A stretch of DNA of 32,532 nt, taken from positions 1 to 32,532 of the forward strand of contig JAGMCH010000029.1 of NCBI GenBank assembly GCA_023129255.1, given 5' to 3'. This DNA comes from Dehalococcoidales bacterium (GTDB taxonomy: Bacteria > Chloroflexota > Dehalococcoidia > Dehalococcoidales > BS750m-G39). The notes beneath the pieces are model-generated. The model had not been told where the DNA came from. It made no database searches and was given only the letters and a program-made list of their open reading frames with translations. Below, piece after piece: positions 4,419 through 22,032 of the stretch (positions within the stretch are counted from its first letter, which is position 1; each line of letters begins with the position of its first letter). The translations under genes and the position numbers were made by a program.

Positions 4419-5456
4419 ATGAAAGCTATTGAATGGCTTGGCAATAGAGTAAGAATCCTGGACCAGACCAGGCTTCCCCAAGAAGAGGTCTATCTGGAGC
4501 TTAGCCGCTATCAGGATATAGCCTCAGCCATCGCAGAATTGAAAATCAGGGGCGCTCCGGCCATTGGAGTAGCTGGAGCCTATGCAGTGGCTTTAGGCGC
4601 CCTGGAAATCAAAGCTACAGCTAAAACTGAGTTCTTGCGAAAACTCCAAGCCATCATCCAGACCATTGCCTCTACCCGACCCACCGCCCGAAACCTGTTC
4701 CGCGCCCTGGAGCGAATGGGGCGAGCGTCGGAGTCGGGCAAAAACGTAGACCAGATTAAAACAGCCCTGGTCAATGAAGCCATCGCCATACATACTGGAG
4801 AGGCTGAGGCAACCAGAAGGCTGAGCCAGCTTGGCGCCGAGTTACTAAAAGATGGCTTTACCATCCTGACCCACTGTAATACCGGCGCCCTGGCTACCGC
4901 CGGCTACGGCACCGCCTTTGGAGTAATCAAAAAAGCCTGGGAGCGGGGCAAAAAGCTCAGGGTTTTCGCCACCGAGACCCGCCCCCTCCTCCAGGGGGCA
5001 CGAATCACCGCCTGGGAGCTAAACAAGGCTGGCATCCCGTTCACCCTTATCACCGACTCCATGACTGGCTATTTTATGAGCCGGGGGGAGGTTGACTGCG
5101 TTATTGTCGGCGCCGACCGGATTGCCTTAAATGGCGATACCGCCAACAAGATAGGCACCTACACTCTGGCGGTGCTGGCTAAGGAGCACAATATCCCGTT
5201 TTATGTTGCTGCCCCCACCACCACCATTGACCCCTCGCTGGCTTCAGGGGCTGAAATTCCCATTGAGCAGAGAAGTTCTGACGAGGTAACCCGTATTCAG
5301 GGAATAAGCATTGCCCCCGAAGGCGTTGATGTTGCCAACCCCGCCTTTGATGTTACCCCCCACCCCTATATAACCGCCATCATCACTGAGAGTGGTATAA
5401 TAAGACAGCCTTTTGGGGAGGGGATAAAGGAAATTTTTAGAAACCTATCCCCCTGA
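4419..5456 (+). CDS. mtnA: S-methyl-5-thioribose-1-phosphate isomerase
   Basis: MtnA of the methionine salvage pathway converts 5-methylthioribose-1-phosphate to 5-methylthioribulose-1-phosphate. It belongs to the eIF2B-alpha-like family, and 345 aa is typical. Diagnostic segments are MKAIEWLGNRVRILDQTRLP at the start, RGAPAIGVAGAYA, the catalytic Cys in THCNTGALATAGYGTA and the catalytic Asp in GADRIALNGDTANKIGT. It starts six bases after the permease stop and has no clear Shine-Dalgarno of its own, so it may be read through from the transporter genes. mtnP lies about 1.1 kb downstream. The last residues (IFRNLSP) are encoded by a sequence that also occurs as non-coding repeat near 8500, so its C-terminus appears to have been replaced or extended by repeat DNA. 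Confidence 0.95.
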   Translation: MKAIEWLGNRVRILDQTRLPQEEVYLELSRYQDIASAIAELKIRGAPAIGVAGAYAVALGALEIKATAKTEFLRKLQAIIQTIASTRPTARNLFRALERMGRASESGKNVDQIKTALVNEAIAIHTGEAEATRRLSQLGAELLKDGFTILTHCNTGALATAGYGTAFGVIKKAWERGKKLRVFATETRPLLQGARITAWELNKAGIPFTLITDSMTGYFMSRGEVDCVIVGADRIALNGDTANKIGTYTLAVLAKEHNIPFYVAAPTTTIDPSLASGAEIPIEQRSSDEVTRIQGISIAPEGVDVANPAFDVTPHPYITAIITESGIIRQPFGEGIKEIFRNLSP

Positions 5457-5560
5457 CCCCCTTCCCTTGGGAATTTATGAAGGGAAGGGGGGAGTGTGGG
5501 GAGAGGGGGCTTCGCCCCCTCTCCTGAACCTCTCCCCCAAAGGGTTAAGGTTTATATTAA
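5432..5560 (+). repeat. GC-rich palindromic repeat, copy D
   Basis: This begins inside the last codons of mtnA (atttttagaaacctatcc) and continues past its stop. It contains two strong hairpins: CCCCCTTCCCTT/AAGGGAAGGGGG (5457-5491) and GGAGAGGGGG/CCCCCTCTCC around CTTCG (5500-5524). The same order of elements recurs at 8497-8600. The hairpins could terminate or stabilise the upstream transcript, although no T-tract follows them. Confidence 0.7.
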
Positions 5561-8496: not shown

Positions 8497-8652
8497 AGAT
8501 TTTTAGGAACCTATCCCCCTGACCCCCTTCCCTTAGTATTTGTTGAGGGAAGGGGGAGTGTAGTGAGAGGGGGCTTTGCCCCCTCTCCAAAATCTCTTCC
8601 CCCTCTCCAAGAGTGGAGAGGGGGATAAAGGGGGTGAGGTTGATAAACGATT
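8497..8652 (+). repeat. GC-rich palindromic repeat, copy E (uninterrupted)
   Basis: It begins with the same sequence as the end of mtnA in copy D (atttttaggaacctatcccc) but here in non-coding DNA after the methionine synthase stop. Hairpins follow in order: CCCCCTTCCCTT with its complement, GAGAGGGGGC/GCCCCCTCTC, and CCCCCTCTCC/GGAGAGGGGG. It ends with gataaagggggtgaggttgata. That last segment is contiguous here and in copy F but is split by a 35-bp palindrome in copies G and H. Confidence 0.75.
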
Positions 8653-14956: not shown

Positions 14957-16907
<1,951 letters not shown>

Positions 16908-18158: not shown

Positions 18159-18713
18159 ATGGAAACTTGGGCGATTGTGGCACTGGTGCTAGGGTCAAAT
18201 ATCATTATTGCTCTTTCCACGTTTTTCGCCACAAAAATGCAAGTAAGCCATTCTGACAAACGGTTAGACAAAGAACTCGAAAGAGCGAGGGAGGTAGATT
18301 ATCGGGAGAGGCGACGAGAAATTAGAGGTGAACCATTACTCAAACTAAGAGCTGAGCTGGCCCGTATGGCCAACAAACAAAACAGATTGGTGGACGCGGC
18401 ACATAAACAACACACCAGGTTTGGTTTTACGGACGAAGAAGCACAAGAGCTACTGCGAGAGGCTATCGACGATTGGAACAACTACGTCAGAGGTGGGGAG
18501 TGGTTGCAAACTCTTTTCATGTTAGACGATGCGGAACTTGGAGACAAGCTAGGAGATATATTAAAGGGTTACACAGAATCTTATGTTAGTGCTATATACC
18601 ATAAAGACCTAAAAGCAACAGAACTAGGAGAAGCTATGCAGGTCTTTGAAATAAACAAAAATAAGATTATTGAAGTCCAATCATTAATTAACAAACGCTT
18701 AGAGGAATTGTAG
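18159..18713 (+). CDS. Membrane-anchored hypothetical protein
   Basis: A 184-aa protein. A single N-terminal hydrophobic helix (about residues 4-28, WAIVALVLGSNIIIALSTFFA) precedes a highly charged helical region (DKRLDKELERAREVDYRERRRE...) and a largely alpha-helical remainder. It most likely faces the cytoplasm from a single membrane anchor. I know no named family, though proteins of this layout are common hypotheticals near mobile or variable regions. GGGAGGTGG is at a good distance from the ATG. The DNA is AT-richer than metK, and repeat copy G follows its stop. Confidence 0.65.
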   Translation: METWAIVALVLGSNIIIALSTFFATKMQVSHSDKRLDKELERAREVDYRERRREIRGEPLLKLRAELARMANKQNRLVDAAHKQHTRFGFTDEEAQELLREAIDDWNNYVRGGEWLQTLFMLDDAELGDKLGDILKGYTESYVSAIYHKDLKATELGEAMQVFEINKNKIIEVQSLINKRLEEL

Positions 18714-18722
18714 TTCATATAA

Positions 18723-18878
18723 ATAGGGAGTTTTAGAGGGGCGAAGTCCCTCTTATACAACTAATTCCCCCTCTCCTTTGAAGGAGAGGGGGACAAAGCG
18801 GGTTCCCAGGAAAATCGAAGATTTTTCTGGGTGCTTACAGGGGGTGAGGTAGAATAAATCCTATAAAATCTGGCACCG
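18723..18878 (+). repeat. 156-bp direct repeat, copy G (filled by palindrome)
   Basis: This copy matches 20479-20635. Over the last 113 bases (18766-18878 against 20523-20635) I count only three mismatches. It contains CCCCCTCTCC/GGAGAGGGGG, a 35-bp palindromic insert, gggggtgaggtagaataaat, and then the first codons of the phosphohexomutase (atcctataaaatctggcaccg), after which the match stops. It lies before the lipoprotein gene and therefore carries a stranded fragment of the downstream gene's start. Confidence 0.85.
18802..18836 (+). mobile_element. Miniature palindromic element, copy 1
   Basis: A 35-bp sequence beginning GTTCCCAGGAAAATC and ending GATTTTTCTGGGTGCTT, with near-perfect inverted arms around a three-base loop. 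It interrupts the segment acaaagggggtgagg, which is contiguous in repeat copies E and F. The left flank (aaagcgg) resembles but no longer equals the right flank (acagggg). Confidence 0.7.
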
Positions 18879-18893
18879 GATTTAGATAGATGA

Positions 18894-18922
18894 TTGACTT
18901 AACCAGCTTAATGACGTAATAT
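18894..18922 (+). promoter_or_regulatory. Promoter of the lipoprotein gene
   Basis: TTGACT, 17 nt, TAATAT. The expected transcript start near 18929 lies downstream of the ORF track's start at 18924 and upstream of AAGGAGG and the ATG at 18963, so it supports the later start codon. Confidence 0.55.
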
Positions 18923-18962
18923 TTTGCCAAATAGCGGTAGAGGAGCAAGGAGGCATCAAACA

Positions 18963-20345
18963 ATGTGGAAATCTAAAGGTATTAAATGGGTAGTTGCGGG
19001 CCTGGTTATCCTCACCATGCTTATGGGGAGCGGTTGTGGCTTGTTCAACAAGTCGCCGGAGATTACCAGCCTTACCCCCAGTGCCACAACGGTAGGGCCT
19101 GGGGGGAGCTGCACCGTAACCTGTACCGCCAGTGACCCCGACGAGGACGATACCCTTACCTATGCGTGGGCAGTCACCGGTGGGGCTATCTCAGGAACGG
19201 GTAACTCGGTTACCTGGACAGCGCCGGCAACTGAGGGAACCTACACCATCAGCGTGACCGTCAGCGATGGCGAAGGCGGAGAAGCCAGCGAGAGCTGCGC
19301 TATTGAGGTAACCAATACCCCACCGGTTATCGCCAGCCTTACCCCCAGTGCCACCAACGTGTTACCCAGCGGGAGTTGCACCGTAACCTGTACTGCCAGT
19401 GACGCCGATGGCGATATCCTTACCTATGCGTGGACAGCCACCGGTGGGGCTATCTCAGGAACGGGTAACTCGGTTACATGGACAGCGCCGACAACCGAGG
19501 GAACTTATACCATCAGCGTGACCGTCAGCGATGGTAAAGGTGGGACAGCCAGCGAGAGCTGCGCTATCATCGTCGAAATGAGATTCGGCTCCATCGACAT
19601 CAATTCTAGTCCCGCCGGAGCAACAGTCTACCTCGATGGGGTGGATACGGGAAATATAACTCCCTACGTCATAACCAATGCCCCCCCTGGCACCTATACT
19701 ATCAAGCTGGAGTTGTATCATTACAAAAATCGCCAGGCGCTGGTAACAGTCAATGCCGATGAGACCACCTATATTAATTGGTCGCTCAACTATGCCTCAG
19801 AGCAGACGATAACCATACAGCCTGACGCCACTGCCGGTAAAGATGCCGGTGTAGATACGTATTACCCGAATCAGAATTATGAAATCCACTATCAACTAGG
19901 TGCTGGTCATGGGACAGTAGACACCTGTAGAGCATACCTTCAGTTCAACCTCGCTTCAATTCCCGCTAATGCCGTAATAGTAAATGCTAGGTTGGGATTA
20001 TACTACTACTACACGGATAATTTGTCAGCGGCACTCATTGGAGCTTACTTAGTGCCGGGAGCCTGGAATGAAAGTACTATAACCTGGAATAACCAGCCGG
20101 CGGTGGTAACAACGCCAGAATATACCGTCAATGTGCCTGCTTTGGCAACAAACGCTTTTATCTACTGGTATATTAGCAACATGGTTAAGGGTTGGTGGGA
20201 TGGCAGCATACTAAATTACGGTGTAATGCTGAAAGATTACGATGAGAGCACCATAGAAGCCTGGAAAGGCTTTTACTCTTCCGACTGGGGCACTGCTAGC
20301 CAGCGTCCCGTACTAATAGTTACCTATTTCGACCCAACCTCCTAA
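18963..20345 (+). CDS. Surface lipoprotein with Ig-like, PEGA and DNRLRE domains
   Basis: A 460-aa exported protein. The start is ATG 18963 with AAGGAGG upstream. Basic residues and a hydrophobic helix end in a lipobox (LMGSGC), so Cys near residue 25 should be lipidated. Two tandem Ig/PKD-like repeats of about 89 residues follow (ITSLTPSATTV... and IASLTPSATNV..., each with GTGNSVTWTAP and TYTISVTVSDG). A PEGA domain (SSPAGATVYLDGVDTG) comes next, then a C-terminal DNRLRE-type domain of about 165 residues (AYLQFNLASIPANAVIVNARLGLY...WNNQPAV...VLIVTY). It is likely a cell-surface adhesive or carbohydrate-interacting protein. The DNRLRE domain is usually found in secreted proteins; its exact ligand is unknown. 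Confidence 0.85.
   Translation: MWKSKGIKWVVAGLVILTMLMGSGCGLFNKSPEITSLTPSATTVGPGGSCTVTCTASDPDEDDTLTYAWAVTGGAISGTGNSVTWTAPATEGTYTISVTVSDGEGGEASESCAIEVTNTPPVIASLTPSATNVLPSGSCTVTCTASDADGDILTYAWTATGGAISGTGNSVTWTAPTTEGTYTISVTVSDGKGGTASESCAIIVEMRFGSIDINSSPAGATVYLDGVDTGNITPYVITNAPPGTYTIKLELYHYKNRQALVTVNADETTYINWSLNYASEQTITIQPDATAGKDAGVDTYYPNQNYEIHYQLGAGHGTVDTCRAYLQFNLASIPANAVIVNARLGLYYYYTDNLSAALIGAYLVPGAWNESTITWNNQPAVVTTPEYTVNVPALATNAFIYWYISNMVKGWWDGSILNYGVMLKDYDESTIEAWKGFYSSDWGTASQRPVLIVTYFDPTS
19068..19565 (+). repeat. Tandem in-gene repeat encoding two Ig-like domains
   Basis: Two copies with a period of about 267 bases, starting at agccttacccccagtgcc (19068 and 19335) and both ending near gccagcgagagctgcgct. 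Long stretches are nearly identical at DNA level, including synonymous positions (for example gggctatctcaggaacggg), so the duplication is recent or kept uniform by conversion. The second copy is one codon shorter. Confidence 0.8.
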
Positions 20346-20359
20346 CCCGCAGCCAATCA

Positions 20360-20388
20360 GGAGAGCCTCCCTTTTAGGGAGGCTCTCC
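20360..20388 (+). terminator. Terminator-like hairpin after the lipoprotein gene
   Basis: GGAGAGCCTCCC, loop TTTTA, GGGAGGCTCTCC: a perfect 12-bp stem starting 15 bases after the stop codon. The following tcccttat is only modestly T-rich, so termination strength is uncertain. Confidence 0.65.
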
Positions 20389-20478
20389 TCCCTTATCTGG
20401 CAAGTAGATGAGCAGTAAAAGGGAAGTTTAAGAGGGGCGAATACGGGGTCCCCGCAAAGGGGTGAGAAGCCCCAAGTT

Positions 20479-20635
20479 ATAGGGAGTTTAAGAGAGGCGA
20501 AGCCCCTCTTTATAAAAAACCCTCCCCCTCTCCTTTGAAGGAGAGGGGGACACAGGGGGTTCCCAGGAAAATCGAAGATTTTTCTGGGTGCTTACAGGGG
20601 GTGAGGTAGAATAAATCCTATAAAATTTGGCACCG
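20479..20635 (+). repeat. 157-bp direct repeat, copy H (filled by palindrome)
   Basis: Partner of 18723-18878. A further partial unit (gggaagtttaagaggggcgaa) lies just upstream near 20422, so the locus holds one and a half copies. Here the repeat runs without a break into the phosphohexomutase reading frame, which identifies this as the junction natural to that gene. Confidence 0.85.
20559..20593 (+). mobile_element. Miniature palindromic element, copy 2
   Basis: The same 35-bp palindrome as at 18802-18836. Here the flanks are intact direct repeats: ACAGGGG at 20552-20558 and again at 20594-20600. This fits a target-site duplication of at least five bases, read against the uninterrupted copies E and F. 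Confidence 0.75.
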
Positions 20636-22032
20636 ACGGCTGGCGGGGGATTATCGCCCAGGATTTCACCTTTGACAATGTGCGGGCTTGCTCCCAGGCG
20701 GTGGCTGACTACCTCAAACAGGCAGGCTTAGCCAGCCGGGGGCTGATTATCGGCTATGACAATCGCTTTGCCTCCGAGGACTTTGCCTCAGCCGCCGCTG
20801 AGGTAGCTGCCGGCAATGAGATAAAGGTATACCTCTGCCCCAAGGCTACCCCAACGCCAGCGATAAGCTTTGGCACCCTAGCCAAAAAGGCGGGCGGGGC
20901 TATCGTCATCACTGCCAGCCACAACCCGGCTATCTGGAGCGGCTTCAAGTATAAGAGTGAGGAAGGGACTAGCGCCCCACCCCAGGTTACCGCCGAGATA
21001 GAAAAATACATCTCTCTTGCTCTAACCACGGGAGAAATAAGCCGCATACCGCTTTCTGAAGCGTTAGACCAGGGAATAGTAAACTACCTTGACCTGGCTC
21101 CAATCTACGTTCAACAGCTAGCCAAGCTCGTTGACCTGAACCAGCTACGCCAGGCTAAGCTTAAGGTGGTGGTGGACCCTATGTACGGGGCTGGCGCCGG
21201 CTACTTCCCCATGCTTTTAAGCGGAGGGGCTATGCAGCTGGTGGAGATAAACAGCGAGCGCAATCCCCTCTTCCCCGGCATACAACCCGAGCCAATTGCG
21301 GCTAACCTGGCTAAGCTCTCGGCGACAATCAAACAGCAGAAGGCAAATGTTGGCTTAGCTACTGATGGTGATGCCGATCGCCTTGGCATCGTCGATGAGA
21401 ATGGAGAATTCCTGACCCAGCTCCAGGTCTTTGCCCTGCTCTGCCTCTATCTCCTGGAAGTGCGCCGGGAGCGAGGGGCTATGGTCAGGACGCTCACCAG
21501 TACCACTATGGTTGACCGCTTGGGCGAAATATTCAACGTGCCGGTATATGAGACGCCGGTGGGCTTTAAATATGTTGCCCCCATAATGATAGAGAAGAAT
21601 GCCCTCATCGGTGGGGAGGAGAGTGGGGGTTACGGCTTCCGCGGTTACATGCCAGAACGAGATGGCATCCTGGCTGGCATCTATTTCCTTGACCTCATGC
21701 TCAAGACAGGTAAGACCCCTTCACAGCTCCTGGACTATCTCTACAGCAAAGTAGGTCCCCACTACTACCAGCGCCGGGATTTCACCTTCCCCGAAGACCA
21801 GCGCCAGGCGATAACCAAGCGTGTCAGCGATAATCTGCCCCAGTCCATTGAAGGGGTCAAGGTGGCCAAGATAAACACCACCGATGGCTTCCACCTTACC
21901 CTGACTGATACCACCTGGCTGCTCATCAGATTCTCCGGAACCGAGCCCGTGCTCCGCATCTATGCCGAAAGTGAGAGCCCGGCTCGAGTAGAGAGGCTGC
22001 TGGAAGTGGGCAAGGAATTGGCTGGGATCTGA
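20611..22032 (+). CDS. Phosphomannomutase/phosphoglucomutase (ATA start proposed)
   Basis: An alpha-D-phosphohexomutase interconverting hexose 1- and 6-phosphates. Motifs are the phosphoserine loop TASHNPAIWSGFK, metal loop DGDADRLGI, sugar-binding GGEESGGYGF and phosphate-binding RFSGTEPVLRIYAE. The ORF track starts at GTG 20680, which would remove the universally placed N-terminal FGTDGWRG. That sequence is encoded in frame just upstream (IKFGTDGWRGIIAQDFTFDN), and the frame is open from 20605. No ATG, GTG or TTG occurs there. The best candidate is ATA at 20611, four bases after GGGGTGAGG, giving 473 aa. A cupin related to mannose-6-phosphate isomerase follows at once, favouring mannose metabolism. 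Confidence 0.85.
   Translation: MNPIKFGTDGWRGIIAQDFTFDNVRACSQAVADYLKQAGLASRGLIIGYDNRFASEDFASAAAEVAAGNEIKVYLCPKATPTPAISFGTLAKKAGGAIVITASHNPAIWSGFKYKSEEGTSAPPQVTAEIEKYISLALTTGEISRIPLSEALDQGIVNYLDLAPIYVQQLAKLVDLNQLRQAKLKVVVDPMYGAGAGYFPMLLSGGAMQLVEINSERNPLFPGIQPEPIAANLAKLSATIKQQKANVGLATDGDADRLGIVDENGEFLTQLQVFALLCLYLLEVRRERGAMVRTLTSTTMVDRLGEIFNVPVYETPVGFKYVAPIMIEKNALIGGEESGGYGFRGYMPERDGILAGIYFLDLMLKTGKTPSQLLDYLYSKVGPHYYQRRDFTFPEDQRQAITKRVSDNLPQSIEGVKVAKINTTDGFHLTLTDTTWLLIRFSGTEPVLRIYAESESPARVERLLEVGKELAGI

Follow-up and report, generated by a model that had tools for sequence, protein, structure and literature searches.

A duplicated gene-start fragment at a dispersed repeat, and candidate AUA and AUU start codons, in a genome of the Dehalococcoidales

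How does the beginning of one gene come to lie, severed from the rest, in front of its neighbour? The question is raised by a locus of a Dehalococcoidales bacterium (assembly GCA_023129255.1, contig JAGMCH010000029.1) in which a lipoprotein gene lies between two copies, G and H, of a direct repeat, with the phosphohexomutase gene following H. The window (the whole 32,532-nucleotide stretch that was analysed) is one contig (G000:C27) of the draft genome G000, which comprises 1.31 Mb in 104 contigs and is estimated to be 91% complete. The features concerned are as follows:

18159-18713, plus strand: ORF of 184 aa between metK and G, without a Pfam match; a 43% relative stands in the same place in G015
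18723-18878, plus strand: copy G (core 18726-18803, extension 18804-18850, probable copied phosphohexomutase start 18851-18878)
18879-18893, plus strand: GATTTAGATAGATGA, possible remnant of the last DPH6 codons (GATTTA plus a stop before the lipoprotein promoter)
18894-18922, plus strand: putative lipoprotein promoter TTGACT-N17-TAATAT, kept in three relatives
18963-20345, plus strand: lipoprotein, with lipobox, two PKD/Ig-like domains, PEGA and CBM96 (from Pfam and relatives)
20360-20388, plus strand: inverted repeat GGAGAGCCTCCC-N5-GGGAGGCTCTCC 3' of the lipoprotein gene, likewise present in G004 and G009
20479-20635, plus strand: copy H (core 20482-20560, extension 20561-20607, gene start 20608-20635)
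20597-20606, plus strand: Shine-Dalgarno-like GGGGGTGAGG in copy H
20611-22032, plus strand: phosphohexomutase, with a probable AUA start at 20611; the first in-frame standard start is GTG at 20680, past the conserved KFGTDGWRG

The direct repeat announced in the preliminary description is real, as is the lipoprotein ORF that it encloses: G (156 bp) and H (157 bp) are 92% identical and, as had been stated, differ at exactly three positions across their last 113 bases. The identity falls into two blocks, with about six differences plus indels in the 13 bases preceding the last 113; a count over the last 126 bases gives nine differences. In its 5' part G has diverged from H to the same degree as other copies of the repeat have; in the 3' part the two are nearly identical. 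The last 28 bases of the shared stretch (AGAATAAATCCTATAAAATTTGGCACCG in H) correspond to the start of the phosphohexomutase gene and carry a single mismatch between the copies. That the repeat takes in the first codons of the next gene was therefore described correctly, except that no ATG is found there: the in-frame codons are ATA AAT CCT ATA AAA TTT GGC.

The first 79 bases or so of the repeat (20482-20560 in H) turned out to belong to a dispersed family, of which the genome has about 40 complete or partial copies, intergenic for the most part. Its core forms a strong hairpin with a 12-bp stem, CCCCCTCTCC pairing with GGAGAGGGGG (fold z = -2.6), and a few copies continue into the next 47 bp or so, the extension TCCCAGGAAAATCGAAGATTTTTCTGGGTGCTTACAGG. 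Since both parts occur elsewhere, only the gene start and the close 3' identity are special to G and H. When the whole genome was searched with H together with the gene start, the gene-start fragment was found on G and H only, and not on many copies of the repeat; the 28-nt fragment had no match elsewhere within six mismatches in the 411 kb of G000 scanned. That the fragment is a normal part of the repeat was rejected, because other copies stop at or soon after GAGGTAGATAA. No inverted repeats of at least 40 nt were found. A match to the GA-cis RNA family (RF02987) was rejected at 27.4 bits, below the Rfam gathering threshold of 34.7, and none of the copies in 136 kb pass it. A second repeat family is also present in the window, at 5433-5521 and 8499-8587, with copies that are 75% identical (ATTTTTAGAAACCTATCCCCCTGACCCCC...).

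The history of the locus can be read from gene order in relatives. The order ahcY-metK-...-phosphohexomutase is kept, and the intervening genes vary. In G000 the series is metK, the 184-aa ORF, G, lipoprotein, H, phosphohexomutase; in G015 it is metK, the 184-aa ORF, repeat, a gene resembling the diphthamide synthase DPH6 (Pfam Diphthami_syn_2), repeat, phosphohexomutase; in G004 it is metK, an ORF, repeat, DPH6, lipoprotein, phosphohexomutase. G009 has DPH6, lipoprotein and phosphohexomutase, and G003 has DPH6 and lipoprotein followed by the contig end. The lipoprotein gene thus lies directly 3' of DPH6 in G003, G004 and G009, and in G004 and G009 it lies directly 5' of phosphohexomutase, with no repeat between the two. 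G001 (L101), the closest relative by phosphohexomutase (87% identity), carries that gene in a different neighbourhood, with neither metK nor the lipoprotein gene on the stretch examined; the repeat 3' end and the AUA are kept there.

These comparisons bear directly on the idea, put forward in the preliminary description, that the lipoprotein segment (about 18879-20478) was brought in through duplication or recombination at the repeat. Direct repeats on both sides of the gene speak for an arrival, as does its absence from most genomes in the order and several in the same family. Among 41 genomes, G003, G004 and G009, all of that family, are the only ones with full-length relatives (61-66% over 460 aa). 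Comparison of the metK-phosphohexomutase interval nevertheless found the gene between unrelated flanks in these three relatives, with the same promoter and neighbours and without flanking repeats. Their promoter reads TTGACT-N17-TAAGAT, so that TTGACT-N17-TAANAT directly 5' of the gene is common to all four genomes. The common synteny and promoter argue that the lipoprotein gene is an old neighbour, and arrival, largely refuted by these genomes, is an unlikely account. What survives of the first interpretation is a gene-start fragment stranded through recombination at the repeat; that the lipoprotein segment came with it is not supported.

Copy G occupies the place of DPH6 in G000, and a close DPH6 is missing from the assembly (91% complete, 104 contigs), which has only a 32% paralogue elsewhere; because this is a draft metagenome assembly, the gene could be present in the cell and unassembled. 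In G003 and G009 DPH6 ends GATTTA...TGA just before the lipoprotein promoter, and in G000 the promoter is intact immediately past the G junction. GATTTAGATAGATGA may tentatively be taken as what is left of the DPH6 end, the match being as short as six bases and a stop codon.

The account that we consider probable is that an older repeat before DPH6 grew by copying of H as far as the first bases of phosphohexomutase, and that the new end was joined close to the end of DPH6, with loss of that gene. Many genomes of the order have repeat copies upstream of phosphohexomutase, which makes H the resident copy and G the derived one; the 3' end of H would supply the Shine-Dalgarno-like sequence just before the AUA start. 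The lipoprotein gene is the old neighbour, with its own promoter and the terminator-like inverted repeat. G stands where relatives carry another repeat copy, before the DPH6-like gene. Repair or replication starting from that copy could have used H as template through the shared hairpin, and G would thereby have gained its H-like 3' half, reaching 28 bases into phosphohexomutase. Joining of the copied end near the DPH6 stop would then have removed DPH6 and left G as a scar with no function. A point against this account is that the copy-and-join step has left no independent trace; moreover, the repeat before phosphohexomutase is missing in G004 and G009, and a second loss must therefore be assumed there. 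The scar is known from one draft genome.

The same junctions could be produced in two steps, in which crossing-over between the repeat before DPH6 and the one before phosphohexomutase deleted the whole block and a lipoprotein-repeat-phosphohexomutase block, from a relative or a sister chromosome, was rejoined at the gene start. Arrangements of the form metK-repeat-phosphohexomutase do exist, in G016, G033, G038 and G039, but this route requires two events, with the illegitimate join falling on precisely the same point, and we regard it as improbable. Short-read assemblies are known to go wrong at repeats of such length, and the structure might be a chimaera of the metagenome bin; the odd junction lies away from the repeat boundary, however, and G has private base changes, which makes an artefact a good deal less probable still. 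Recombination between G and H that removes the lipoprotein gene is possible in principle, and no recombined state without the gene was seen.

It could also be asked whether the fragment in G has a role, for example as a short leader ORF of 10 codons, from an AUA start to a stop, by which the lipoprotein is tuned. G does retain both the AUA and the Shine-Dalgarno-like end, but no such leader is seen in relatives, and the fragment ends where the lipoprotein promoter begins, which would place the ORF outside the mRNA made from that promoter. A function of this kind is very hard to credit, and the reading of G as a scar of repeat-primed copying is retained.

The absence of an ATG from the copied codons leads to the second question of this locus, namely where phosphohexomutase begins. 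The protein has all four Pfam PGM_PMM domains, and domain I starts at the K of KFGTDGWRG. Between the in-frame stop and this motif the G000 gene contains no ATG, GTG, TTG or CTG, and a standard start is likewise lacking in 10 of 29 genomes, this one included, from eight families (G000, G001, G005, G015, G016, G028, G030, G033, G035 and G038). In all ten an ATA precedes the K by four or five codons, at the position that ATG, GTG or TTG occupies in relatives, and the next standard start is codon 24 or later. In six of the ten, TAG-ATA follows directly behind a repeat-like end (GAGG or GAGT) with the Shine-Dalgarno-like GGGGGTGA or GGAGGTGA, and GGGGGTGA lies some 5-6 nt before the AUA, a spacing usual for Shine-Dalgarno sequences. 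The codons before KFGTDGWRG in the AUA genomes are mostly Pro-Ile with synonymous changes (CCT/CCC/CCG, ATA/ATT), and locus L142 has CTC. Initiation at the GTG at 20680 was rejected, as it would lose the conserved motif; a UAG initiator was also rejected, the TAG being out of frame and the ATA in frame in G000 and G028. From this comparison we infer that the AUA at 20611 is the start codon.

The end of the repeat suggests how such a start might spread. Copies end GGGGGTGAGGTAGATAA or GGGGGTGAGGTTGATAA, and the 36 occurrences of the pattern GGTGAGGTWGATA divide into 22 of the A form and 14 of the T form; the reversed control pattern occurs once. A-form ends open into ORFs of at least 70 codons 15 times in the ATA frame and 4 times in the other available frame, the third being closed by TAA; the 15 include several phosphohexomutase orthologues and several others with a standard start a few codons later. 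A third copy in the window shows a likely gene start of the UUG kind:

15563-15640, plus strand: repeat copy before ahcY, which probably starts with TTG 15645 at the end of the repeat

The ATG at 15618 that opens the ahcY ORF falls inside this copy, and the likely TTG start would be supplied by the repeat.

Candidates of the same kind are found in other genes. In G000, ATA stands behind the repeat in carA, ispD, hisG and probably a NUDIX gene; away from the repeat, ruvB, mdh and a response regulator have ATA, and L21 (rplU), purM and hflX have ATT. No ATG, GTG or TTG precedes the conserved N-terminus of ruvB (L125-), purM (L130-), mdh (L118+), the response regulator (L123-) or hflX (L128-), and in each an ATA or ATT lies behind a Shine-Dalgarno-like sequence. 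For carA in G002 and ispD in G009 only ATA is available, where most relatives have ATG. Of 47 genomes of the order, 45 have ATT at the L21 initiator position, nearly all with GGAGG before it; of the remaining two, one has ATC and one ATG. Outside the order, ATT was found in one of 34 sampled genomes, from a different order of the same class, and in the rest an ATG or GTG stands there or no more than a few codons away. The G000 rplU lies in the region G000:C44:2665-2799 (L117, minus strand), and the comparison loci are L379-L408, L409-L428 and L437-L447. A conserved ATA is also present near the likely start of infC throughout the order (L349-L378), with other non-standard codons nearby. Loss of IF3 was considered as a cause and rejected, IF3 being found in 33 of 41 genomes, G000 included.

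Counts of codon by Shine-Dalgarno sequence over all N-terminal codons gave no signal, and the same count in ORFs without a nearby standard start was marginal (P = 0.05). Such unbiased counts are weak because background ORFs dominate, and the case for AUA and AUU thus rests on the homology-anchored starts. On balance, we judge it an even chance that AUA and AUU are regular starts of essential genes in bacteria of this order (AUU in L21 almost order-wide; AUA or AUU in phosphohexomutase, carA, ispD, ruvB, mdh, purM and others in some lineages), and that the dispersed repeat spreads one such start. In GGGGGTGAGG-TTG-ATA the repeat would offer a UUG start; a single change to GGGGGTGAGG-TAG-ATA would make this a stop and leave the AUA as start. 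Translation from both codons is deduced from homology and sequence context.

Repeat-mediated gene loss and gene conversion are known in bacteria, and the locus resembles them in having an identity tract between repeats and a gene missing at one of them; unlike those cases, the tract here leaves the repeat into the start of a neighbouring gene and ends in non-homologous sequence. The rearrangement is a neat but ordinary instance of repeat-driven gene loss, and the start codon is the more important finding. Since ATG, GTG and TTG are the only starts that gene finders commonly take, the N-termini of these proteins are probably miscalled throughout the order. If ribosomal and metabolic genes do start with AUA and AUU, the order would be a natural test of what limits start-codon choice, whether IF3 stringency, Shine-Dalgarno strength or deliberate low expression, and its cultured members would allow testing.

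The element itself is comparable to dispersed palindromic repeats (REPs, GTAG-tagged REPs, which have been reported from Chloroflexi, and MITE-like elements; PMC3733652) in its many intergenic copies, strong internal hairpin and genome-wide scatter. It is longer than short REP stem-loops and than GTAG-tagged REPs (PMC3733652), and ends GGTAGATAA; where a GTAG-tagged REP is a short stem-loop with GTAG unpaired at one end, GTAG is here part of the 3' end GAGGTAGATAA, several bases off the stem, and the T-form copies have GTTG. Also unlike REPs or MITE-like elements, its 3' end abuts gene starts and supplies a Shine-Dalgarno-like sequence.

For the start codons, a literature search found nothing on AUA or AUU starts in Dehalococcoides. 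The nearest parallels are the fixed non-canonical starts of Staphylococcus aureus, AUA in infC, ccpN and citZ and AUU in cvfC1, in which mapped AUA starts with extended Shine-Dalgarno sequences gave roughly 10-30% of AUG expression (PMC13009471), and those of Listeria, ATT in infC and ATC in rnhC (PMC13068326). Common to these and the present cases are AUA or AUU at the initiator position, a usually strong Shine-Dalgarno-like sequence and conservation among relatives, and the ATA near the likely infC start agrees with the AUA of S. aureus infC (PMC13009471). The present cases differ in that the candidates are housekeeping genes, at least 10 of them in one genome, and in that a dispersed repeat provides, with its end, the putative ribosome-binding site of several.
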